NCBI GenBank assembly: GCA_031213475.1
Contig: JARUPZ010000002.1
Coordinates: forward strand, 1,054,001 to 1,118,000
Source: Nereocystis luetkeana
Taxonomy: Eukaryota; Sar; Phaeophyceae; Laminariales; Laminariaceae
Direction: 5' to 3'
Length of the DNA: 64,000 nt
In this document: positions 4,535 to 63,600 of the stretch, piece after piece
How the letters are laid out: every line of letters begins with the position of its first letter
Numbering within the stretch: position 1 is the stretch's first letter
The notes under the pieces: generated by a model
Databases searched by the model: none
What the model saw: only the letters and a program-made list of their open reading frames with translations
What the model was told of the DNA's origin: nothing
Program-made: the position numbers and the translations under genes

Positions 4535-4757
4535 TCCCATTCATTATCTTCGCACATCTTCTTCTCTCTCTCCTTCCAACTCGTAACTCAGATCCGGGGT
4601 CACATAGCAGGCTCTTCTCCCCCCTTCCCGCTACGGTACGTGCCTTCATTTTTTATCACGAGAAGATTTCAGCCTTTTCTTCCCTCGTCGACTCGCATCG
4701 AATTGTGCCTACCCACGCTGCAAGGCGCTCTCAACAATTGAATCCCTTTTTATATTT
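4535..4757 (+). repeat. dispersed repeat B, copy 2
   Basis: Matches 2245-2470 in the opposite orientation over about 220 bp with few differences. It sits between a LINE A 3' end and a tRNA-like block, so this part of the window is a mosaic of retroposed pieces. Confidence 0.65.
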
Positions 4758-4774
4758 TTGCAAATAAAGTCAAA

Positions 4775-4853
4775 GTCCGACCCTCCTGGGGCTCGAACCC
4801 AGGACTCAAACAAGTAGAATTCGAGGTTAACCACTTGAACCACCGGGGCGACC
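4775..4853 (-). other. tRNA-like block, SINE head or tRNA pseudogene
   Basis: On the minus strand there is a good pol III B box (GGTTCGAGCCC) inside a perfect 5-bp T-arm (CTGGG/CCCAG), and an A-box-like TGGTTCAAGTGGTTAACC at the correct distance. The acceptor stem does not pair well and the anticodon loop is nine bases, so I do not call a working tRNA. It abuts the broken 5' end of the LINE at 4856, which suggests a retroposed tRNA-derived sequence. Confidence 0.4.
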
Positions 4854-4855
4854 GG

Positions 4856-7404
4856 CTGGTACTCACACGCTTTGGCGTACCAACCAAGATGCTGAGAATT
4901 ATCCGTCATTTCCACGATGGCATGCGGGCTCGCGTGCGTACTGATGACGGCGAGCTCTCGGAATGGTTTGATGTCACGCAGGGGCTGCGGCAAGGCTGTG
5001 TACTATCACCGTTACTGTTCAACGTGTTCTTCGCTGCTGCGTTACACATCGTACTAGTACGCTTCAGCCAAGACGAAGCCATAGCAAGGGATTTGATCCA
5101 ACTCAGTGAAGCTGGAGTAGTTCGAACAGGGAAGGAGGAGCCATTGGCGTGCGTGCGAAGGTCTGTATGGGGCATGTTGTACGCCGGTGGTGCAGGAATT
5201 GTCTCGAAGTCGGCTGAAGGGCTCGCAAAAATGATGACAGTCATCGTGACTGTCTTCGAAGCAGCAGGCCTCACGGTGTCGGAAAAGAAGACTGAGACAA
5301 TGGTTCTACAAACACCAGACCGGACAACCCTCGCACCACCGCTCGTCATCGAAGCGGCAGGTCAGAGGTATAAGCAGACGACCCAGTTCTTATACCTAGG
5401 CGGCGTTATCCACGAAAACGCCCCGCTCTCGCTCGAAATCGACCGACGGATCCGCCTCATGCGAGCATGCCTCAAACGGTTCGGCCCGGAGTTGTATGAT
5501 AGGACGACCGCCCCCCTTAGCCTGAAAGGCCGAATGCTGACGGCCGAGGTGATTGAGACCCTGCTGTACGGGTGTGTGGCGTGAACCCTCAGAGCGGAGC
5601 ACTTTGCCAAGCTTCAAACGGCTCACCACCAAGTCCTGTTGCGAGTCATTGGCTTCCAGCGCCGACTTCGTACTGACCATGCCACCCTCTCGTACGCGAA
5701 GGCTCTCAAGATGACACGTTGCGAGAGCATCGAAACGACCATTCGTAAACGGCGGCTCTTCTTTGCGGGGGGCGTGGCACGGCAAAGCAAGGAGCGATTA
5801 CCCAGTCGGGTAATGTTCGGGACGATAGCTGGTGGGGAGAACCCGAGACCAGGCGGACAGTGTAAGACTTGGCATAGATGCATAGTCGAAGACCTTAGGG
5901 AGTTCCGAGCCACCGAAGGGTCAACGGAAGTTGCCCCCTTGGTGTATGGAGTTGAGACCGCGTTGTGGTCCACTGCAGCCAAAAAGGCGGGGAAGTGGTA
6001 CCGGGGGATCCTTGAAGCAGCCGAACGGTTCATGGTGAGGTGGCACGAGGCTAAGGCTGAGATGAGCAGGCAGCGCCGCGCATCCGCCGTGGATGGTGCC
6101 CAAAAGAACGGGGGGGAAGGGGGCAACAGGAGAAGTGGCAGAAAGCCCGATAAGGGAATGCGGAGAGGGGGGGGAACAGGAGGGGTAGAAGGGAAACGGC
6201 GGTAGACGAAAGTAGGAAGGAGATGGCAGACAGGGTAGCAAGGCACCAAGTCGACTAGGAAGTACAACATGACCATACCACTAGTGCTACCAACTAGTGC
6301 AGCTGGTTCGAACGTGGTCTTCCCTTGTCTTCTCTTTTTGTTGTGTGTGTGTGTTTTTTTTTTCTTTCTTGCGCTGACTCTCCGTGATTTTCATTTTATT
6401 TCTTTCTCGTCCTTTTCTGATTGATAAGCCGTACTGAAGGAGCCGTGTGGCGTGGTTGGATGACGAACCTGCTCTGCTCGTTTCGTATTGTCTGGCGCCA
6501 AGGGGTTGGGCATAGTTGACGAACGCAGGGCGGAGACGGCAGTCTGGGTAGCAAGGTACCAGGCGGATTAGCAGGGAGAACCTGGCTATACTACTCGTAC
6601 CACAAACTGCTGCCGCCACCTGGAAGGTGCTTTGGACTTTGGTCTGCCTGTTATTTCCCCTTTGTTATTTTTCCTTGTTACTTTTTTCCTTGGTTCTTTG
6701 TCTTACTCTGTTTACAAGCAGTGGTGTTTTTTCTTATTATTTTTCTTCCTTTTTTTCCAGCTCGTTCTTTTTCAAGTGTTGGCCACCTCGCCTGCGGGGG
6801 GGGGGGCACGACAGATTGTTTCTCCTAGATTTTGCTTTCATTTTTTCTTTTTCTCTTTCGATTTGTCTACCTTGTTTTTGTTTTCTCTTTGATTGATTCT
6901 TTTCGTTTCACTATTTCATAGATTGCGTATGTCGTGCCTGTCGTATCTAGTATGATGACATGGCTTTGCATTGCCCACTGCAGTGCATACTGCACACGTG
7001 GCAACGTAGTTGTTGTTGTTGTTGTTCTCACATTAACTCACAATTCAATGCAGTCCGTGGTCGCAGGACAGGCTCCAATAACTCTGGAGTGGAAGAAATA
7101 CCTCAAGTAAAAACAGAGGCAAACAGGCATACGCACTCCACCACTGCGGACACCAGGGAAGCAAAAAGGAGACTATTAATAGAAGACAAAAACCTAAAAA
7201 AAGAAGATGAAGCTAAGCAAAACAAAAACAAAAACAAAACTAAAACAGACGCAGATAGCAAAACGCGAAAAAAGTATCTCTGTGGCGTAGCTTTGTGACC
7301 ACAGAACTTGTATCTCTTCTAGGATTGAAGAATCGGCACGGACACTGGTTGTGCTGGATGTCGACGGGTAGAAAGAACGGTTTAATGTGAAGAACACACA
7401 CACA
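4856..7404 (+). mobile_element. LINE family A, 5'-truncated copy L1
   Basis: Non-LTR retrotransposon with the C-terminal half of the reverse transcriptase and the downstream region. Readable blocks include [14 protein letters not shown], then [15 protein letters not shown] near 4978-5022, and a degenerate catalytic box (YAGG in place of YADD) near 5176. The frame is open from about 4835 to 5584, where an in-frame TGA interrupts it, and continues to about 6205. A T-rich 3' region follows to an ACACAC tail at 7404. A second LINE fragment is inserted at 7008-7277. The copy is inactive. The family looks RTE- or L1-like from the RT blocks, but the clade is uncertain. Confidence 0.85.
7008..7277 (-). 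mobile_element. LINE 3' fragment nested in L1
   Basis: About 270 bp in minus orientation, with its (AAC)n tail at the left edge (read as TTG repeats on the plus strand). It matches the 3' end of the LINE at 38340-39418, including the block around TCCAATAACTCTGGAGTGG. The mirror-image LINE at 7466-10015 lacks it, so it inserted after L1 was in place. Confidence 0.75.
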
Positions 7405-39417: not shown

Positions 39418-42400
39418 CCCTGAGAACTCGCGAGGACCCAGTCATTTCAGCTCATGATACACTGGAGACTCGCGAGGACTCAGTCATTTCAGCTTCCGGT
39501 ACCCTGGGGACTCGCGTGGACTCAGTCATTTCGGCTTCTGGTACCCTGGGGACTCGCGAGGATTCAGTTATTTCAGCTTCTGGTACCCTATAGGGGCTCA
39601 GTACTTAAAAATGGCTCGGACTCGCGAGTCAATGACTGAGTCCCGATGACTGGTACCGGCACTCTGACGATATTTTGCATTTTTTTTCAAGGGCGTCAAG
39701 GAAAGACCTGGTACACAAAATTTTGTATTTGCTTTTTGTTTAACCCTCTGGCTCGGTACTCGCGAGGACTCAGTCTTTCCAGCTTTTGTTACCCTCGCCA
39801 CTCACGAGGACTCAGTCATTTCAGCTTCTGGTGCCCTAGGAACTCGCGAGGACTCAGTCAATATCAGCGTCTGGTACCCTGGAAACTCGCGAGGACTCAG
39901 TTGTTTCAACCTCTGGTACACTGGGGACTCGCGAGGGCTCAGTCAATTCAGCTTCTATTGGTAGTACCCTGGGGATTCGCGAGGACTCAGTCATTTTCAG
40001 TTTCTGGCACCCTGAGGATTCAGCGCTTCCACATGGCTCGGACTCGCGACTCATTGACTGAGCCCCAATGACTGGTACTAGAACTCTGACGAGCTTTGGA
40101 TCGTTCGTACTCGTGAATATCGTACCTGGTACCTGATATACACTGGTACATATCTGGTACGTGATTTACATTGCCTCGATTTCCTGTGCAACTCGTAAAT
40201 TCGTAGTGGTTTTTAATGGTTTTACCTCATGCCTGACATCTCTCCCTCTACCGTTCGCAGTGATCGTATCTATCATTTTTTTGTCTCTGTCCATCCCTCT
40301 TCATCTCTGTATATCTCCCTCTCATTCTCCACCATACTGTTGTGCTCGCCTTGCCCCTGTGATTTCTGCATCCAACTGTACACCTACATCCCACCCCCTC
40401 CCTCTCTCTGCACGGTCTTCCGATGTGACCCTCCCCCCCCCCTGCAGGAAGGTCTCCAAGCGTTTGGCCCCAGAGCCGGCAGATGCCCCGCAGTTTCAGC
40501 CATGCCCCTCCCGCTAGGACACGGTGAGCGCGTAAATCCTCTCAGAGGAGGGGATTAACCTCTTTGGGACTACCCAGGGGAAAAACATATCAAAACAACA
40601 TCGGCCACATGAAGCGCCCCGGGCTGCTAGACTAGGGGACGTCCCCGAAACGTAACGTCAGGGGCTTCCTGGTATACGAGACGCGTGTAGCGTGTTGATA
40701 CCCGTACTGCTGCGCGCTGTTCCTGCTCTAGACGAGAGGTCAGGTCAAACTCCTCGTTTTTTGGTCGATGTACTCGGGTTCCAATAAGGTTTTAGGAATG
40801 GATGTGACGTCCACACCCTATCTTGCACTATTTAGGCTGGATTTTATTTTGCCTTCTTGGTTGCTGATCCATTTGTTGTTGGCGCTGTGTACCTCGCTGC
40901 CGTCGGCTGCCCAGGGGAGTCACAGTGCAGCTACGTGCTTGGCGATGAACATTTGGAGGTCAGATGCGGCGTGGTGGACCCGTCCAGGCGGGGCGCGTCG
41001 ATTGCATTGGAAGTCGATTCTTCTTCAGACGATTCAGACGGCTCAGACGACTCCAGTTCCAGCAGCGAGGATAGTAGTGATGTCAGCAGTGATGATAGTA
41101 CCGGCAGCAGCTCTAGCGAAGAAGATGATGAAAGTAGCAGCAGCAAAAGCAGCAGCAGTGGCGGCGGCAGAAAAAGGAGTGCCCAAGATGGTACCCACAA
41201 GGAAACCGGCGAAGAGAACGCCCCAGCAGCTCGCGAAGGCCCCGGCCCGATCATCCTGGAGCCTATTCCCGCAGGAACAGATTACCGGCTTGATGTAGAC
41301 AGAGGGGCCGGCTGCGTCACCCCTAAGAGGGACACCAAAAGCGCGCCGAATCGAATTGACGTAGACCTCACGGACACTACGCCGAAAAAAAGTCAAACAC
41401 AAACGTCGCCTGTGAATCTGGCCGGCACATCATGCAGCGAGAAGCGGCAGAATGCAACAACGGCTACGCCGAGCGGAACCAAGCCAATGCAGACACCGGT
41501 TAAGCGACAAGGCAATACCAGCATAGGTTCGGAAGCGGACCGTTCGGAGGACGTGACGGCTCGTCAACCGGCTGTCCCTGCAGGGATTCCTGCTCGAGGG
41601 CCTGTCGTGATTTACCGTTGCAGGGTGCTGCATGACGAGGGCTCGATATTCCTCGTCATCTCGTGCCCAAATACTGGGTATGTCTCGGCCGTCAGGAATC
41701 ACGCGATTGTCAAAGGTGCCCGGCGGGACAATAGGTGAGTTTTTCATTGCCCCTAAGTTTAGCTGTGTTCAAAGCCGCTTGAGGCGCTCGGCTTTGCCCT
41801 ACTCGTCATTTTTGTGACGCATTTTTAACCCAGTTTTGATTTGCCTCAACGTTTGTGAGATGTATGTGCACCAAGTGACCGCCGATTGCCAGCGGGCCGC
41901 TGGCTGAGCTCTTTAGCCTTCTACAGTTAATAATATCGTTAAGGGCACCGTTCATGTTGCCGGAATCAGCCGTGTCACAGCCCCACCTTGTACATTACAA
42001 AGAAGACAAACGTTTATGAACACTGCGCAGTCTCTGAGCGTTACCTGCACTCGCCCTTCCCTCTCCGCCCTCTCTCCTTCCTTTCACAGCGTCCTTTTCG
42101 TCATTCACTTTGCTCCGGAGGACGTTGTGGAGCACCCGGCGTATGCCCCGCTGCTAGCGCTGAGGGGCACCCACGTTGCTCTTGGGTACGGACGTCGAGG
42201 CCGGGAGCGAGGGGCGGGGGGGCTGCAATACCGCAAGCTGGCGGAGCGGTCCGTCCAGCTCAACTTCGTCGCCCCACAGGCCTTCCCACTGCACTCCGCC
42301 CTGCTGAATGTGGGGGAAGTCAAGGACGCGTCAGACGAGAAACCGGCGGAGGTGGACGAGGGTGGCCGCGAAATGGGCCCGGTTATCGGGAAGACGCTGT

Positions 42401-43992
42401 TGAAGACAGTGCTTCTCCCAGCGTCGGCGCGCGGGATCGATTCCTCTGCGGTACGCCCTCCTGTGGCGATTGGCGAGATACTCGAGGACATCGAGAGCAG
42501 GGTGGAGGAGGCGGGACTGACAGCCGAAAGGGATCGTATCGTGGCGAAACTTCGAGCTGCGCACGGACTGCCGCCGATCGTCATCACACCAAAGGAACGG
42601 CCAGTTGCACAGTTATCAGAACCGGGAGCAACCGATGCCGGAGAGCTCAACGATGACACAGCCGCACCCTCGGAGGAAGCGGCGTCAACGACGCGCACCT
42701 GCCCCGAAGAGTGTGCTCCGTCGGGAGCCAATGCGTTCCCAGGTAGCCCACCTGTGTCTGCGTTGCCGCGACCGCCACCGCCGCCGCCACCGCCGCCACC
42801 ACCGCCACCGCATCTGGTGTACGGCGACCCGCCCTTTAAGCGAGCAAGGACAAACGCCGATGCTTTTTCAGGACCACACGGCATACCAAACTTCCATCCA
42901 CCACCGCCGCTGCCGCCACCACCACCTGGAATAAACGGCAACAACATAAGGCCACGAATGCCCCGCGGCTCCTTGTTCAGCGGTGGGGGGTTGGCCGGCG
43001 CGGAAGTGTTTTTCCTCGGGACGGGAAGCGCAGCGCCGACTAAAAACAGAGGTTGCAGCGGGATCCTTCTGCGAATCCCTCAAGCGGGAGTTGTTAGAGA
43101 CGGCGTTGCGGAGGGGAAGCCGCTACGCCTGTTGATCGACGCCGGGGAAGGGACTCTCGGACACCTGGAGAGGCAATTCGGGCGTGAGGGAGCGCTCGAA
43201 GAAATTCGGGGGCTCGACTGCGTATGGATATCGCACAAGCACGCGGACCACCACACGGGGTTGTTCCGCCTCATCGCAGAGCACCACCGGGCGCGCATGG
43301 CATCGGGCTCGATGGGAGGGCCGCGCCAATCAGAGGCGGGAAGCCCGCTGATGGTTGTTGCACCAAGCGCCGTGCTTACTTTCGTGGCAAAGTGCAGAGA
43401 ATTCTCGGGCGAGCGAATAACGTACCGAGCGGTTCACTGCAGGGACATCGAACGGAACAACTTCTGGCGTGGCGGTAGCGGTGGTGGCAGCAGCAGACAG
43501 GGGGGCAGGCAGGGGGCGTCGATGCTGCTGGACGGAATGAGGTCGGTACCCGTCATCCACTGCAGGGAGGCATACGGCCTCGTCGTGCAATTGTGGCCGG
43601 ACGGCGCCAAGGTGGTGTACAGCGGGGACACAAGGCCTTGCCAACGCCTGGTGAGCGCTGGAGCCCAGGCTGCGCTCCTCATCCACGAGGCCACATTCGA
43701 CGACTCGATGAAGCAGGACGCAGTGTCGAAGTTCCACTGCACCACCTCGGAGGCACTAGAGATAGGGGGGCGTATGCAAGCTCAGGAAGTTGTGCTCACC
43801 CACTTTTCGCAGAGGTACCCGCGCGTGCCCGTGCTAGACCCCGACCGAGCGCAGCACTTCTGCGTTGCTTTTGACGGCATGGTTCTCAACAGCGCCACGG
43901 TGGGAGTCCTTCCCGCCGCGGCGAGTCTTCTGAGCCAGGTTTTGCAGCCGAAAGCGGAAGAGGAGGATGCCCAAGAAATAGCACTTGCTTAG
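37248..43992 (+). CDS. ELAC2: long-form tRNase Z (ELAC2 type), 6 exons
   Basis: Endonuclease that removes 3' trailers from precursor tRNAs. Exons: 37248-37280, 37419-37556, 37791-37958, 40448-40523, 40915-41734, 42090-43992; phases agree, giving 1,045 residues. The amino half is the inactive metallo-beta-lactamase copy (VLGTGDDGSSPCLL, RRYLFNVGEGTQRF, LFLTGTGAEEHAGLSGLILT). A Ser/Asp/Glu-rich insert lies in exon 5. The catalytic half opens with FLGTGSAAPTKNRGCSGILL, has the zinc motif HKHADH at about 794-799, then VVYSGDTRPC, LIHEATFDD and VVLTHFSQRYP. A polyproline linker (42770-42830 and 42895-42930) separates the halves. Human ELAC2 is 826 residues, so this one is long. The ATG at 37248 is the first in frame, but the frame is open back to 37143 without ATG; an upstream exon encoding a targeting signal is possible. 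Exon 4 is the least certain. Confidence 0.92.
38340..39418 (+). mobile_element. 5'-truncated LINE (family B) in tRNase Z intron 3
   Basis: Carries the C-terminal part of a LINE ORF related to family A (compare LSYASALLTTNSESVETTVL here with LSYAKALKMTRCESIETTI in L1), a G-rich then T-rich 3' region, and a perfect (CAA)n tail at 39353-39418. Its 3' end matches the nested fragment at 7008-7277. It lies inside a minisatellite, with the CAGTCATTTCAGC unit present just upstream (38312) and again downstream (39440). Confidence 0.8.
39425..40090. repeat. about 42-bp minisatellite in tRNase Z intron 3
   Basis: Units of the type ACTCGCGAGGACTCAG, TCATTTCAGCTTCTGG, TACCCTGGGG are repeated about four times at 39425-39595 and about six times at 39755-40020. 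Each block ends with the same 60-bp unique-looking segment (ATGGCTCGGACTCGCGA to CTCTGACGA), so there is a higher-order duplication. Not CRISPR: there are no unique spacers and the setting is eukaryotic. Confidence 0.85.
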
Positions 43993-55579: not shown

Positions 55580-57439
55580 CATTACGCAAGGGGGGTGGTC
55601 CCGACCACCTGTCAAGGCAATGGAGTCAGCGGTCATGGTTGCAAACTTACGAATTATCCGTCGGCGGCCGCAGGGGTATCGGTGATGCCAGAGGGGCGAA
55701 CCATGGGTGTGGCGAAGTCGAAGATGTTGCGATGTCGGCGGCGGTCGCATTAGCAACGGTGATTTGACGTCAAGCGAGTGTGCGTGTATAAGTGGATGCA
55801 TGATATGCGAACCATCTGCAGGAAGGAGATGAGAGCAAGGAGATCATCAATCCCCATTGATTGGCGGCTCCGTCCGTCCAAAGCGACGGGTGCAAGAAGG
55901 AATCAACCTACCATATAGTGTAACACGGTACAGCTGACTGGTGGGAGGCAAACCCACCTGAACCAATGCCTAGCGTCGACGACGTGAGTGAGTGCGGAAC
56001 CTCTCTGTAGGAGCGGATATGGCAGAATTCGACACCGTCGTACGAAGACAGATGCCTGGTGGAATTACGCTGCAATCTTACACGTTGGTCTGTTGCCTAC
56101 CGCGTAGTAGGCGTGAAACACTGACTGTCGTCGTTGCTTGTCGGCGGCTCCGCCCTTTGCGAAACGTGACGTCGTATGAATTGCCGTGGCCATCTTTTCC
56201 TGTGGGCAGGAACCGGTATACCACCACACACAAACGAGGAGCTGGCGTTATTACTCGTGAAGGGAGGGGTCACGTCACGGCTTTGATCCCATGTACAGGT
56301 ACTGCTGTACAGTTCGTAGTGATATTACATTGCGCACGAAGATGCCTGCGGGGAACGTGGACGGGGGGAATGGCGCAAGGGAGAGCGTGAACACGCGCGG
56401 GGCGCGATCCCCGCGGAGCAGGTAGTAATATAGGTAGGTGGTGTTAATGGCAGGTGTCCAGCACTCATTTATTATATATGAATCCAGCCCAACACATATT
56501 TTTGTCATTGCCAAAGCGTTGGGATATACCATCTATCGTATAGGAACGTACATTTACCGTTTGCGAATCTTATACGGATCAAGCGTAGCGTTTTGGGAGC
56601 ATACCCGTTTGCGAATCTTATACGGCTTCGCGTAGCGTTTTGGGAACATACCCGTATGCGATTCTTGTATGACTACACGTACCTAGCGCTTTGGGAATCT
56701 TCTGTATGGGAATACTCGTATCTGCGTACCAGGCTAGTTTTGGTTGACATCTGGGCTGAGCCGTGTTCCTGGCGAAGTTCCCCTACCACTCACTCGAGTT
56801 CCCCCCCTAGCTGCCTTTCAACTCACTTGAGGAGCAATAATAAGAAGTTCGTGAACCACAAGCAGCGTGCTCTACCCAGCACCGACATCCCTGTGCCCCT
56901 TACCAGTATATATATATATATCCGGCACCATCTTCACATTTGGCGACGTCAGCAATACTGGTCACCGCTGAGCTAGACGCACCTGCTTCAAACAGGCTTC
57001 TTCTACCTTGTTATCCTGTCTGTGAGCATCATCATGAGAGGCTTTCGATTTTTGAGTTCCGAGTCATTTTTTTTTTACATGTACATTGTACCATTTTTTG
57101 GGCTGCACCCGCAGCAGCTTCCTAGCCTCGTCACAGCAGTAGCCTCCACGAACCGCAGTTTTCCGCTCGTAACCCCGCTCTCTTTCCGTTTGCGCCGGTG
57201 CGATCGCCCCCCTGACAAAGTCGATTTCTGACGATGATCCAAGAAAGGCCTACTTTACATAGTAGTAGCAAGATGAGAGCCTTATTATGTATCTCCTAGT
57301 GTTAGTAGTATAATAGGAGGAGTCAGAGTCAGTAGTAAAATAAGTTGCCTATCATCATATCTCCGGACGGACGACCAGCATGCGGACATTCTCACGAAGG
57401 CTATTGGGTAAGAGAGTTTTGAGAAACACCGCGATTTTC
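55580..57439. other. intergenic, no supported gene
   Basis: Contains a short minisatellite (56558-56700) and a TA run near 56907-56922. Open frames below 135 codons show no recognisable features. Confidence 0.45.
56558..56700. repeat. about 48-bp tandem repeat, 3 units
   Basis: Three units of CGTTTGCGAATCTTATACGG followed by GCGTAGCGTTTTGGGA-type sequence, at spacings of 48 and 47 bp; the third is the most diverged. Confidence 0.8.
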
Positions 57440-57875
57440 TGTTAGGGATACAGTAATTTGTTGTTTGTGGATGGTGTTTGTTTGTGCTATCGAGGCTTGT
57501 TAGTTGATCCAGCGCCAGGGAGGGTGTTCGGTATAGCTTGTCTCAACGAACAGCCTAGCAATAAGTTACGGTTACATACGTTGTGTCACGGAGGTAAAGT
57601 TACTGGGATCGTCTCGTGGTATCACTCACGAGCAGTCCCACGTGTATGTACGAGTAGGCACTATGCGAGGAGGTTTAGGTATTCGACTACGAGCGGTTGT
57701 TACTGGGCTGTGGAGAGTTGACCCACATGACCCACTCCACCTTTCCCCCTGTATTCGTCTACTCCTTTCCGGGCCGACATAATAAAGACATCTTAAACTA
57801 TCTTCTACACACTGCGTGTTACAGTGCCTCGCTCACAGCCTAGTGTGGCTGTTGGGAACTTATCCATCCATCGCA
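57440..57875 (+). repeat. candidate 5' LTR
   Basis: Starts TGTTAGGGATACAG, holds an AATAAA at 57781-57786, and could end in CA at 57823 or 57875; the latter is followed by TATCAGCGCTAATTGG, which may be a tRNA primer-binding site. Without the 3' LTR the ends stay tentative. Confidence 0.35.
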
Positions 57876-59204
57876 TATCAGCGCTAATTGGAACACCGTA
57901 AGTTGTTTTTTTTATTGCTTTGTTTGTTTTATTTTGTTTTATTTTTGTAGAGGGATTTCTCGGTGATTTTAATCGCCTCCCGAGCACCCAAGCTCATTCC
58001 GGGTCTATCAACAATCTGCCCGTTCTGGTCCTGTTGGTGACGTTCGTATACTACTTGTACTGCATTCTCTGCTCCAGTGCGTGCGTTGCCTCTACACCTC
58101 AACCTGATTCCGGACCCCCATGTATCCCTTCAACGGTGGACACTCCACCCCCGGGCTTCCAAGCCCCGACATATGCGGCCACGACTGCGCCTGTACCTTC
58201 CAAGGTTCAGACGCTCCCGCCCGCGACCACCGCGTTCATCCCCTTGCACCCAATCCCCTCATTTTTCGAGCCCATAGCTCTCACCATTCCGGCTGCTGTG
58301 CATACGGTGTGCCCACGGCCTCGATTGGCCAGCGCCCAACCACAGTTGGCCTGCGGCGACACCCCTCTTGAGGTTATTTCTGTGAAATTCCGACCTCAGC
58401 AGGTGAAAACCGCGACGGCTACCACAGAGTATGGCGCCGCGACGACAGCCGCGCCCAACCACCACACCCACCATCCTGCACCATTTCTGGGGCTCGCTGT
58501 GCTCCTATCCTGGTGAATACCCCCACCCCCGGCTTCCACAGGGCCATCCATCGCCACAACCAATGCCCTTCTACCCGACGCCGGTTCCACGCCCCTATGG
58601 AGCCCGCGTCCACCACCTACCACGCCAAACAACGCCGCACGCAAACACCGCAACACCACCCACTGCTACCGCCGTGCTTCCACGTCTACCGGCTGCATCT
58701 CCGACCAGCACCAGCGACAGCGACGTCGACTCACCAAGCAGACGATGCCGCAACTGTGGTGGCCGCGACGACGGTCGCGCTCGCCCCAAATCTGCGACTG
58801 CCCCTGAAGCCCGCACATCATCCGTGTTGACGCTTCTCCGGGCCTACTACGGGACTACACAACCGATACCATCCCTGCTGGACTGCCAAAAAACCACCTG
58901 GACATGAGCAACGCCGACTATATCTTTATCGAGTACCCTCGGTGGTTTTTTTTTCGACGTGTATGGCGTGCTAACGACATATTTGCACAGCAGCGCCACT
59001 TCTACTTCCGCCTCTACTCGTCAGTTCCGAGCGCGCAGAAACTTGACGTGCTCAAGGCGAACTCTGCCTCAGCTGTAGGAGCCTAGACTGCAGCGTGAAG
59101 GCCTGTAGGCAACATTGCTTTGCGCAACGTGGGACAAGCCTGACCATGGACAGCAGCTACCGCAACAACAGACGTAATACCAGCGGCAGCGTGGGCGGCC
59201 GATC

Positions 59205-59455
59205 ACGACCTCGGCTGCACTACTTTCGACGCTTCACGCTTGTTACTAACACCGTGCCTTCAGCGAAACGGTATTTCTTCAGGGCCAAGGATCAGCTTCG
59301 CCTTTTATCAGGATGAGTTTTCTCCTGCTTCCCCTCCAGTGGCGCCACTACGTTCGACGCCGCACGTTTGTTACCGATACCGCACCTAAGGTGAAACGGT
59401 AATTCTTCGGCCCAGGACCAGCTTCGTCCTTATCAGGATGAGCTTTTTCCACCTT
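59205..59455 (+). repeat. two-unit direct repeat inside the LTR element
   Basis: Two units of about 110-130 bp, each with the order TTCGACGC, ACGTTTGTTACC-like, GTGAAACGGTA-like, GGACCAGCTTCG-like and TATCAGGATGAG. It lies between the gag-like region and the NADAR region and does not look coding. Confidence 0.7.
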
Positions 59456-60084
59456 CCCCGCCAATAACACCACCACCCCTTTTCACTCACTCCAACAGTA
59501 ATCGCTTGACCAAGTATTGATCCCCTTGTTTAAGTGATCATCTTGAGGTGTGGGTGGGAGGAGGTTCAAACGTCGAGCCTTACAAGGACGCTCGCCTCGA
59601 TGTCTCTTCTCGATGGGCAACGCTGGGACTTGCCAAACATTGCCGCGTGTCCCGCAGGAGCAATTAACCTGCCGGACGCCTTAACTACCACGGCTACCAG
59701 CGGTTTCGGCACTGTACACGGCTTAGCCGCCTCTTCAACCGGGCCATCGGCCGAGCTGGCTTTCAACCGCTTGGGCCGCTCTGCTCGCGCTACGTTCGCG
59801 AGCCCCGCAGCAGCTTCTGCTGGATCTCAGGATGCAATTGACACCGGGACCTCCGCTGACCACCAGGTGCTGACCACACCACTATCCCTAGGCCGACGGG
59901 GTAGCCCCGCCCAAAGGGCGGAAGACTCGCGACCACCGTTGACCGGGAGATCCGTAGAGCCACCTGCCCCGCCATCCTTCTCAGTGCCGTGCAATATGAT
60001 ACGACACCGCAGGACCCGGATACCAGGAATCGCGTCTCCTAGCGAGTAGGCCCCAGCTTCCCAGTTGAAGACCGACCCAAGCAG

Positions 60085-60320
60085 GGACCCTCAGGGTATC
60101 TCCGGCTACGCCCGAGACCCTCCGGGAAACTCGGCGATGCCGACCATTTCCCACGTGGACGCCGAGAGTGCAGTCGGGCCTCTTCTCCCGGCTTCTCTCT
60201 CGAGGATGCCAATCAGCAGTGGCTCCCAGGGTATCTCCGGCTTCGCCCGAAACCCTCCAAGAGATTCGGCATGGCCGACCATTTCCTCCGCGGACACTGG
60301 GAGCGTAGCTGGATCTACTG
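60085..60320 (+). repeat. internal coding repeat ahead of the NADAR domain
   Basis: Two units of about 40-45 codons, GISGYARDPPGNSAMPTIS and GISGFARNPPRDSAWPTIS, each followed by a D/A-E/T-S-x-x-G block. The repeat makes a low-complexity linker between the gag-like part and the NADAR domain. Confidence 0.75.
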
Positions 60321-60389
60321 ACCCGGCTCCCCTCCCCACGACCCCATGCGACGGTTTACATGACCACCGCCCATCACCACTACCGGACA

Positions 60390-60890
60390 AGCCTGCACAC
60401 ACCCGGATCCTCACGCCCAACCAACTCCACCTGTTCTGGCAACGCGACTCCGTCCTTTCACAGTGGCACATGTCGGACTTCGTACATGAAGGCATCGACT
60501 ACAACTGCGCCGAGCAGTTCGTCATGGCGCGTAAGGCCGCACTCTTCGGCGACATCACACGCCACCACCAAATCATGGTTTCGTCCGACCCGGCTGAGCA
60601 GAAAGCTCTCGGAGGCGCCGTGCCTGGTTTCGACGACAACGTATGGGTCTGGCACCGCCTCTCCATCGTTCGTCAAGCGAACTTGAGCAAATTCGGCCAA
60701 AACCCGGACTTGCTCAGATCTCTCTTGGAAACGGGCACCAAAGTCCTTGCGGAAGCCAGCCCTTTTGACATCATCTGGGGCATAGGTTTCAGGGCAGAAG
60801 ACCCACAGGCCTACCAACCTTCGCTCTGGCAGGGCTCCAACCTTCTGGGGAGGGTGCTGATGTCCGTCCGACAGGATCTTGCCCCACCCC
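60390..60890 (+). mobile_element. NADAR (YbiA/DUF1768-like) domain within the LTR element
   Basis: A region of about 160 residues matching the NADAR family, whose cellular members include E. coli YbiA and act on riboflavin-pathway intermediates or ADP-ribosylated substrates. Landmarks in order: YNCAEQFVMARKAALFGD, then the AEQKALG and GFDDNVW blocks, a helix with KFGQNPDLLRSLLETG, ASPFDIIWGIG, and NLLGRVLMSVRQDL at the end. It lies upstream of and on the same strand as the aspartic protease, inside the element. Its role there is unknown. Confidence 0.85.
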
Positions 60891-61199
60891 CTCCCCCCCC
60901 TCCTTTTCCTTCCGGGCCCCACGAGCCGAGGGGCACCGCCCCACCCTCCACCCGAGTGGCCCCCACCAACAACGGTATCTACGAGACAGTTGATACTCCC
61001 CTGCAGCTTCCACCGAGTTGCCTGCTAACCCATCTGCTGCCCCCGTCCACCCCGGACGCATTCCCAGCGGGCCACTCCATCTGACCGCCTGCCCCTGCAG
61101 CCAAAACCTACCCCATCGCTCCCGCGCCAACGATACCGGAACATGAACCCTGCCTCTCCAGTGGCATCCTAACAGTCGACGACTCGTCCTTCACAACCA

Positions 61200-61700
61200 G
61201 GGTGCGAGTTCACAGCGGCCCCAATACCGTCAAACGCTACATCACCGTCGCTCTAATGGATACGGGTTCGCCGCAGACTTTCATTTCCGCCGAAGCAGTG
61301 GAAACACTGAAGGCCTGCGATGCTGCTACCGATGCGTGCGAACGACACGGAGCCCCCCGCTCATGGGGCGGCTTCGGCACCTCCGCCCCCCTCACCACCT
61401 CCGACTCCATCCGCCTTGGCGTACAGTTCCTGAGAGGAACCTCTGCAACGGCCGCCCTAGCCGTGTGGGCATGTATTGTCCCTCCAGGTACTTTTGGACG
61501 GGACAGCTGGATGCGCTTCGAGCAACGCTCGTATACCACGCTTCCCCACCAGCCACCCGGACCACTCCTTGGCGAGATTTCCCTTCTCCACCACGACCCC
61601 AACCGAGCCGCCGCGTTCATTCCCGACGACCGTTCCACAGACGACGTTTACCACCTTCACTACGCCGGCACCCGACCAATCTCCCTTTCGACCACTCCGA
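61200..61700 (+). mobile_element. aspartic protease part of the LTR element
   Basis: Contains the DTG active-site motif with its usual hydrophobic lead (VALMDTGSPQTFIS, near 61245-61290), directly downstream of the NADAR region. Confidence 0.75.
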
Positions 61701-62279
61701 CTCTTGTCGAGGTCAACCAGGTGCGCCAGTCCGGCACTCCAGCGTTCACCGGGCACTACTTGGTCGACATGCTTCCCCGCGATGACCCCCTTGCGGACAC
61801 AGCGATTTTTGTCTCCGATGGGCACCAGACGATACCGCTCTCCGGCTCCACCGAGCTTGAACCGGGGGACCTCCTTGGGACCTCCTCTGCTCCATTGGTG
61901 CAAGTACCAATTTCCACCCTGTCCAACCCTTCCCTGGAGCCCCCTCCGCCCCTCCCCGCCCCCGACGTACATGCCCTCCACGACAACATTCCAGTGGCTA
62001 ACGAGGGTCCAACCTCAGCAGACCCCCCCCCCCCGCCGAAGACCCCGTGCCCTGACCTCCTTGCATGCCTCCACGCCGATCAACACGCGAGCTTCCTACG
62101 CCTTTGGGACCGTTTGCCACAACACCTTCGAGACATCTCCTTCGACCTCCACGGCCCCGGCTGGTCACCATCGGCCATCGACGATTTAGGCGACGTTCTG
62201 CGCGAATACCAGGACGTCTTCTCCACATCCAAGACCGACTTCGGCTCGTGCTCCCTGAATCCGTTCAAGCTCACCGTGC

Positions 62280-63600
62280 CGCCTGACAGCGCCCCCGTCA
62301 CCTCCCGCCCATACCGGATGAACCCGATCATTGCCAAGAAGGCCGATGCCATCATCGACCAATACCTTGCGGCCGGGCTCATCCAGCACTCCACTTCGCC
62401 GTACTCCAGCCCCATGGTAGCTATTCCTGAAAAAGACGGAGGCGTTCGCATCACGATCAACTACAAGAAGCTCAACGCCATCAGTTCCCTCGGACAACTC
62501 CCCATTCCCCGCGTCGACGAGATCCTGGACTCTTTGGGCAAAGGACGCATCTTCTCCCTGTTCGACCTCGTCTCCTCCTTCCACCAGATCACCATCGATA
62601 AGGACACGATTCCCCTCACGGCTTTCTGCCCGCCCGATAGGCTATTCGAGTGGCTCGTCATGCCGCAGGGCAGCAGCGCCGCGCCCGGTTGGTTCGTCAA
62701 GGTAATCAACGAGGTAATCAAAGGCCTGGAACGCGTCGCCGCCTACCTTGACGACATCATCGTCCACGACAGGATCCCACCGCCCACACCGCCGATATCC
62801 GAGCCCTCTTCCAACGCCTTCGCCTCCACAACCTCAAGCTCTCCGCCGCCAAGGCCAGAATCGGCACCACCAAGGCTGACTTCCTGGGACATACGATCTC
62901 CCCCGCCGGCGTTAGCCCGAACGCCGACAAGGTCGCTGCCTTGACCAAGATGCCGATGCCGTCGAATGTAAAGAAAACCCGCGCGCTCATTGGCGGAATT
63001 GGCTACTACCGCAAATTCCTCGGGAACCTCTCCACACGCCTACGCCCCATCACGGCCCTGCTCAAGCAAGGGGCCAAATTCCTTTTCACCCCGGCCATGG
63101 AAGCGACCGTCCGCGAGATTCTCCGCGAGCTTGCCGCCCCTCCGATCCTGGTTTTCCCGGACTACGACGCTGTCGCCGACAACTCCCGCCCCTTCCGCTT
63201 GTACTGTGACGCTAGCCGCGACGGCTTCGGCGCCACCCTCGAGCAGGAACTACCAGACGGCTCGGTCCGACCTATCCTCTTCATCAGCCGCGCCACCTTG
63301 GACTCGGAACGTTCTTGGACCCCCCTCGACCTTGAAGCCGGCAGCATCGTTTGGGCCACCAAGCGGCTACGCGGTCACCGTTGGCCCACCAATTTCGTCA
63401 TCTACTCCGACCATAAGGCGCTCGAGAACATCGCAAAGGTCGGTGAGCACAACGCCCGCGTGCAGCGTTGGTTGGAGTTCCTCTCCGCGTACACGTACAC
63501 GCTGGAGTACCGGAAAGGTACGGCCAATGGTAACGCCGACTTCCTCTCCCGCCTCCCCCAGCCAGTCACCGACGCCGACCGCACTGGACCCAACCGCCTG
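62280..63600 (+). mobile_element. reverse transcriptase and RNase H parts of the LTR element
   Basis: RT blocks PYRMNP, GLIQHSTSPYSSPMV, VRITINYKKLN, FSLFDLVSSFHQI and the catalytic YLDD (near 62743) are typical of Ty3/gypsy. RNase H shows YCDASRDGFGA, LDLEAGSIVWATKRLRGH and YSDHKALENI, then GNADFLSRLP. Confidence 0.9.

Follow-up and report, generated by a model that had tools for sequence, protein, structure and literature searches.

What is a NADAR domain doing inside the polyprotein of a retrotransposon? The question is raised by a 64,000-nucleotide stretch of the genome of the brown alga Nereocystis luetkeana (GenBank assembly GCA_031213475.1, contig JARUPZ010000002.1, positions 1,054,001 to 1,118,000 of the forward strand; hereafter the window), where an initial annotation, made from the sequence alone, had placed a NADAR-type domain just upstream of the DTG protease and reverse transcriptase (RT) of a Ty3/Gypsy-like element, on the same strand. 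The element is a copy of a long terminal repeat (LTR) lineage of Ty3/Gypsy order, in which Pol carries NADAR between Gag and the protease. Most likely, the domain would be a guanine-linked ADP-ribose hydrolase that is delivered in the particle together with Pol.

The NADAR domain in Pol and the family that carries it

The profile search for NADAR (DUF1768) suggested by the initial annotation matched PF08719 at 60434-60880 (+) with 156 bits and E=1.4e-45, far past chance, the cut-off being 35.1 bits. The match covers positions 2-162 of the 163 in the profile and residues 129-277 of a 344-residue frame at 60050-61081. It lies within the interval 60065..61084 given for the domain by the initial annotation, and begins about 370 nt further in. 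The only solved chain found by sequence for it (E up to 0.01) was 8bau_A, with E=2e-17. Seven of eight ADP-ribose contacts are present in this YbiA-type domain, the R79 equivalent being Gly. Directly ahead of it is a linker that is indeed built of repeats, with two 132-nt tandem copies (60080..60346, +; copies 60080-60211 and 60215-60346) that are 73% identical. The protease motif DTG, in LMDTGS, was recognized by eye at 61259..61267 (+) in the frame 61085-62944, and a profile scan of the window Pol gave no Pfam protease match. It is followed on the same strand by RT with a YLDD motif at 62423..62767 (PF00078, E=1e-15), whose frame is broken near 62752-62767, and, past a frameshift from RT, by RNase H at 63085..63492 (PF17917, E=4e-27; PF17919, E=1.5e-17). 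The integrase H2C2 domain (E=5.1e-10) comes next, past the window end, in locus L011.

The NADAR frame starts after TAG at 60047-60049 and is in register with the protease-RT frame, from which it is divided by TGA at 61082-61084; three stops, at 59531, 60047, and 61082, are candidates for the one at the end of Gag. Because of the TAG, the TGA, and the broken RT frame, the window copy cannot make one intact Pol. It is a decayed relic of a group of copies that we call subfamily A, marked by stops, a frameshift, one lost ADP-ribose contact, and Copia insertions. The copies most closely related to it are in contigs C1, C23, and C8; they match it at 92-96% over several kb and have stops at different places.

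The genome (465 Mb in 1987 contigs) was searched for further copies. Many of its small contigs carry a Rubisco large chain (131 matches), for which the closest solved chains include 7yk5, 5mz2, 5n9z, 6ftl, and 1bwv, form ID enzymes of diatoms and red algae, in keeping with an alga that has a plastid of the red lineage. The 344-residue frame gave 122 matches, 35 of which, counted from the table, lie in frames of more than 2,000 residues with no stop within the match, and all of the best 150 of 778 candidates scored with PF08719 were above the cut-off. An RT query was scored likewise for the best 150 of 1386 candidates, and NADAR was found upstream of RT in 114 of these 150. In 103 of them it is listed on the same strand at a gap of 1221-1580 nt (median 1453), and none of the 150 has a listed NADAR on the opposite strand within 4 kb of RT. 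The other 11 came from a third list (six) or from opening loci L173, L176, L182, L183, and L184, in all five of which NADAR is frameshifted within the domain. Since the long stop-free frames are joined by a near-fixed distance between NADAR and RT, a host NADAR gene with its own exons was rejected. No host NADAR gene outside the elements was recognized among the best 150 scored matches, which are dominated by elements. The domain is thus carried by many copies of the family, and not by the window copy alone.

A complete copy with an open Pol was found at L016 with its flanks (contig C21), a member of subfamily B. Its LTRs of 494 nt are identical, the lone mismatch of the 497-nt alignment falling in the three bases before TG, and they have TG..CA ends and a 4-bp target-site duplication, ATAT. 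Pol runs in Ty3 order from NADAR through DTG (residue 653, motif only), RVT_1, RNase H, and H2C2 to rve, the integrase core, which is weak at 25.8 bits against a Pfam cut-off of 32.6. The identical LTRs and open Pol show that a NADAR-bearing copy has moved recently. The window copy likewise has an LTR pair, aligned at 93% over 413 columns (13 mismatches in 398 aligned bases and 15 gap positions). The order of Pol and the paired LTRs support the Ty3/Gypsy-like assignment.

Some of the loci weigh against a domain that is held throughout the lineage. No NADAR was found for 36 of the 150 RT matches, 4 of which were opened and 32 unopened; among those opened, L185 has an internal deletion of ~1.4 kb, and in L174, L175, and L177 similarity to the element is lacking ahead of the protease or of the part that follows NADAR. 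The ten loci opened for loss of NADAR were hand-picked and not random. Four of them were taken from the 10 without a listed NADAR among the first 97 RT rows (>=94% identity), and comprise L185 with its deletion and L182, L183, and L184 with their frameshifts; the six others are more distant, with an E-type NADAR in L172, L173, and L176 and none in L174, L175, and L177. Copy numbers call for caution as well, at least five RT rows being on small, possibly redundant contigs (C1688, C884, C1239, C400, and C643). Groups of NADAR matches with identical scores (C10:1635042, C987, C1041, C1184, and C1795; C11:4268876 and nine small contigs) are perhaps redundant assembly pieces or recent duplicates, by which copy counts are inflated.

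Three further features of the family were observed. By our own count, about 60 of the 150 RT matches are on contig C1, which holds 4.7% of the bases; such an enrichment would fit a sex-linked or low-recombination region, or a contig of unplaced pieces. In L182 (C7:10743170) and L183 (C26:3015114) the NADAR frame breaks at the identical residue, hinting at duplication or at mobilization in trans of a NADAR-broken copy. Slightly upstream of NADAR, six of nine B loci have a tandem pair of 165-168 nt that is 95-98% identical.

The ADP-ribose pocket and the pace of change

We aligned 63 distinct NADAR copies from five subfamilies (A 7, B 29, D 20, E 5, and F 2), six duplicate loci having been dropped, and followed the 8bau contacts given in the Mol Cell 2023 paper (PMC11543638), whose residue numbers were matched to the chain by us. 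The contacts E43, K50, R79, W89, R93, E125, D130, and W133 are kept in 61, 63, 61, 62, 62, 59, 62, and 63 of the 63 copies, respectively, with 11 deviations in all (4 in A, 6 in D, and 1 in B). These copies are mostly top-scoring matches, which inflates the conservation and must be set against it. Within subfamilies the contacts deviate less than other columns (2.2% vs 5.0%, p=0.008). Five subfamily representatives, with L002 and not the window copy standing for A, are 40-52% identical in NADAR and keep all eight contacts, which are among the 37 invariant of 120 shared columns (hypergeometric p=4.6e-5).

Synonymous and nonsynonymous change, whose comparison the initial annotation had proposed, was fitted over the same representatives with a GY codon model. 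The ratio of nonsynonymous to synonymous change (omega) was 0.155, a rough value because synonymous sites are saturated between most pairs, and omega = 1 was worse by 98 log-likelihood units. The case for a maintained function of NADAR would rest on this model and on the pocket: kept contacts with omega below 1 appear to show that a function has been maintained, but not which one. That the domain is a passenger, captured and without function, is very improbable. The high amino-acid change and the many broken copies would suit a passenger, and it is disfavoured by the rejection of omega = 1, by the invariant pocket, and by a NADAR alignment that is free of gaps across A, B, D, and E; of the 286 positions of the B linker ahead of the domain, by contrast, only 250 can be aligned in A and 32 in D. 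Ratios within subfamilies (0.45-0.52) mix decay and selection and are not used as support. They draw on equal-length copies alone (3 of the 7 in A, all 29 in B, 16 of the 20 in D, 4 of the 5 in E, and both in F), and the neutral simulations made for them gave medians of 0.7-0.9 with wide ranges.

NADARs are described as removing ADP-ribose from guanosine in DNA and RNA (PMC11543638, PMC11125620, PMC11833690). All those tested in the NAR 2025 paper cleared it from guanosine in RNA (PMC11833690), and in the Toxins 2024 paper the NADAR and YbiA proteins under test removed it from guanosine in DNA (PMC11125620). As all eight contacts are kept, the catalytic Glu and Lys among them, hydrolysis is the activity we would assign to the domain in the element. 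The same pocket might serve a reader that, by binding to ADP-ribosylated chromatin or host factors, guides the integration complex much as chromodomains do, and chromatin readers are reported for the published Ectocarpus lineages too (PMC12477816). A pure reader would have no need of the catalytic Glu and Lys, however, and NADAR stands at the N-terminal side of Pol, far from the integrase, so that we consider a targeting module doubtful. The E125 position has Glu, the YbiA type, in 59 of 63 copies, Lys in 4, and Asp, the type of BC4488 and of DarT1-associated NADARs, in none of the 63. This Glu would accord with a metabolic role like that of E. coli YbiA, in the hydrolysis of reactive riboflavin-pathway intermediates or other nucleotide clean-up, as would the annotation of several related phage genes as GTP cyclohydrolase II or YbiA-like. 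That annotation is accompanied by the remark 'uncharacterized domain COG3236', without tested activity, and flavin clean-up is of no evident use to a retroelement; we regard such a role as improbable.

NADAR changes faster than RT and the integrase. Between A (L014 or L013) and B (L016), synonymous change per site (dS) is 0.84-0.91 in NADAR, 0.80 in RT, 0.98-1.05 in the RNase H region, and 0.91-0.95 in the integrase. Nonsynonymous change per site (dN) is 0.36-0.38 in NADAR against 0.07-0.08 in RT and 0.11 in the integrase, so that amino-acid change in NADAR is about five times that in RT. Codon bootstraps (L013 vs L016, 400 draws) placed the NADAR-RT difference in dN at 0.19-0.39, and omega at 0.26-0.68 for NADAR vs 0.05-0.16 for RT. 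Because its dS is like that of RT, RNase H, and integrase, NADAR has travelled with the element in these two subfamilies, and we reject both a swap of the domain between A and B and its independent capture by each.

Rapid amino-acid change at equal dS around a kept pocket could reflect counter-defence, in which the alga ADP-ribosylates retroelement RNA, cDNA, or particle proteins and NADAR erases the mark; the service of related NADARs as antitoxins (PMC11543638, PMC11125620) points the same way. Weighing against it, NADAR is the least constrained annotated domain of Pol (omega 0.42, compared with 0.09 for RT), its omega is below 1, and the flanking linkers have an omega of 0.41-0.62, about equal to its own. 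Since these linkers change as fast, an arms race accounts for the rate no better than weak constraint outside the pocket does. Positive selection in NADAR was not shown for the A-B pair. Neutral simulations at the largest divergence used gave an NG86 ratio of about 0.84 (95% range 0.56-1.17), and the pair therefore separates NADAR from neutrality only moderately. We see in counter-defence a sharper form of the hydrolase reading, possible and on the whole rather unlikely.

The Gag-Pol junction, the source of the domain, and the window copy

A Gag zinc knuckle, CX2CX4HX4C, or a remnant of one was seen upstream of Pol in 12 of the 19 loci examined, the knuckle itself in B, D, and E copies. The window copy has a degenerate relic, CX2CX4CX4C with the His lost, at 59065..59106 (+; by eye, in the frame 59047-59316), and a scripted scan for knuckle patterns found none in its Gag region. 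In nine of the 12 knuckle loci (seven B, one D, and one E) the next in-frame stop is UGA followed by C, 131-165 residues on. Directly after this UGA, and in the same frame, an open Pol of at least 2306 residues follows in the B copies L016, L017, L020, L022, and L028, the last of which also has an 898-residue open frame ahead of Pol. Further stops occur within 26 residues in L019 and 88 in L029; the D copy L024 keeps the register with more stops ahead of NADAR, and the E copy L026 has Pol one base out of register. The next stop after the knuckle is elsewhere in L021, L023, and L025. The position of the UGA at the end of Gag suggests, as the simplest reading, that readthrough is programmed and that the broken copies have decayed. 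It counts against this that the UGA continues straight into an open Pol in the five B copies alone, and termination-reinitiation or splicing at the junction would fit too.

As to the source of the domain, the best bacterial protein for the window NADAR is 53% identical (best 80 of 571), and the best phage protein for the B NADAR 51%. For D NADARs, identity to a planctomycete NADAR reaches 58%, as against 56% to E, 51% to B, and 49% to A (over the domain, by measures that differ slightly). A search of viral contigs with alignment A1 gave 13 loci, the best 49% identical, and queries of IMG/VR with the window NADAR, the B NADAR, and the B RT returned no relative. Since bacteria and phages supply the closest NADARs found outside the elements, the domain was probably captured from bacteria. 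Of the captured host or viral enzyme proposed initially, the capture is upheld as a trait shared by many copies, and the donor is probably to be replaced by a bacterium.

One old capture from a bacterial donor would be simple and fits the fixed position of the domain. On a quick tree (106 rows), three changes are required for the element rows, with a phage row falling in with A+B and planctomycete rows with D+E. In a more careful tree, built on 100 of these rows (five long rows and 8bau were dropped after the quick tree had been seen) and with the bootstrap unsettled, A+B (95/87) and D+E (100/93) are grouped and two changes are needed. Constraining the element rows to one clade costs 15 log units, and the approximately unbiased test does not reject it (p-AU 0.171). 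Speaking against a single capture, two planctomycete NADARs join D+E in the careful tree (97/88), and the element rows form a single clade in 0% of the 200 bootstrap replicates. What the unconstrained tree shows is two captures, or else a later transfer in which planctomycetes took part, and both are possible. D is closer to E than to B in the RNase H region and the integrase, but not in RT (75% vs 79%). The planctomycete NADAR gene of L079 (450-5445) is in a NAD-metabolism neighbourhood, between a frame with CTP_transf_like and NAD_kinase and one with AAA_28 and CTP_transf_like, the latter of which we take to be NadR-like.

On the reading that we prefer, an ancestral element would have captured a bacterial YbiA-type NADAR gene, and NADAR would be made at a low level as part of Gag-UGA-NADAR-PR-RT-RH-IN (PR, protease; RH, RNase H; IN, integrase) through readthrough of the conserved UGA. 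It would enter the particle alongside RT and integrase, where it may strip ADP-ribose from element nucleic acids (guanine adducts in RNA or cDNA) or from proteins of the particle or the host, and removal of ADP-ribose would keep reverse transcription or integration running. Taken as a whole, from capture through UGA readthrough to particle-borne ADP-ribose removal that aids replication, this sequence-based account is in our judgement just on the probable side. A full arms race, in which host ADP-ribosylation directed against transposons, as yet undescribed, would be met by an eraser shipped through the leaky UGA, its surface changing at about five times the rate of RT around a frozen pocket, is a tentative idea that we hold to be unlikely.

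The 5' LTR of the window element, with its first ~16 nt missing, is at 56531..56938 (+) and ends in ..CTTCACA like the B element. A nested Copia element divides the downstream LTR, which lies ~4 to 10 kb past the window end (about C2:1122035-1122349 and 1128177-1128280). The 5' LTR has a 91% relative upstream in L013; a 170-nt, 82% repeat around L013 is not the LTR of that copy. No LTR pair was found in the flanks examined for L028, and in neither L016 nor the window copy was a TGG-type tRNA primer-binding site seen by eye directly behind the LTR. The leader of the window element contains a Copia 3' fragment (57358..57895, +) with a 370-nt LTR (57526-57895; TGTT..AACA ends by eye) that matches two LTR copies in L012 at 97-98%, and similarity between L013 and the window ends at 57895. 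A Copia family with 370-nt LTRs has thus struck the element at least twice: its 3' fragment lies in the leader, and a copy in inverse orientation, with two LTRs (L012 1850-7676), lies inside the 3' LTR. Elsewhere in the window are an RT frame at 4742-5581 (PF00078, E=3.5e-12), separate from the NADAR element and probably of a LINE-type element, and a 691-residue frame at 41917-43989 that carries a Lactamase_B_2 domain and may be an RNase Z-like host gene.

Relation to known NADAR systems

The DarT1-NADAR toxin-antitoxin system and the NADAR of 8bau, a Phytophthora chain as inferred from the residue numbering, belong to the same domain family and have the same ADP-ribose contacts (PMC11543638). 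Unlike in DarT1-NADAR, the domain in the element is part of Pol, and no ADP-ribosyltransferase was found in the element frames scanned; from BC4488 it differs in having Glu where that protein has Asp. The Tx1 elements of Crassostrea gigas are also retrotransposons with NADAR, but of the non-LTR type, with a NADAR-like product of the first open reading frame (ORF1) and a divergent domain (PMC12477816). The physiological roles of NADARs across eukaryotes are called unclear in the Toxins 2024 paper (PMC11125620).

The initial annotation could not tell whether a fusion of NADAR to an LTR element had been described. It has: a NADAR-bearing Gypsy lineage (e.g., Gypsy-12_Ec32) is reported from Ectocarpus sp. 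7 (Genome Biol 2025 26:320, PMC12477816), and the NADAR-Gypsy element as such is not new. No other paper on NADAR retrotransposons appeared among those listed from the literature covered, most subscription journals and bioRxiv lying outside it. In the Ectocarpus report, blastp matches of the NADAR outside Ectocarpus are almost all bacterial, and the role of the domain in the elements is left unclear. Its retention with Pol across the deeply diverged subfamilies found here points to ADP-ribose chemistry in the retroelement life cycle, for which the multi-copy family is material for testing, and the conserved pocket, the UGA at the end of Gag, and the rate contrast lead to concrete predictions and a sharper question of what NADAR does.

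The two lineages are alike in being Gypsy elements with NADAR, and they differ in several respects. We observed the UGA junction and the contrast in rate with RT, and the main text of the 2025 report (PMC12477816) has 0 mentions of 'readthrough' or 'stop codon'. In Ectocarpus the integrase has a C-terminal chromodomain; here a weak PF00385 match only (E=0.0076, 16.6 bits against a cut-off of 25.1) was obtained in one of the three C-terminal pieces scanned, that of L026, and not in L011:8877-9995 or in the piece of L016, which stops short of the last residues. The genome is of 465 Mb, compared with 200.2 Mb in Ectocarpus (PMC12477816), and the lineage is represented in it by at least five NADAR subfamilies.
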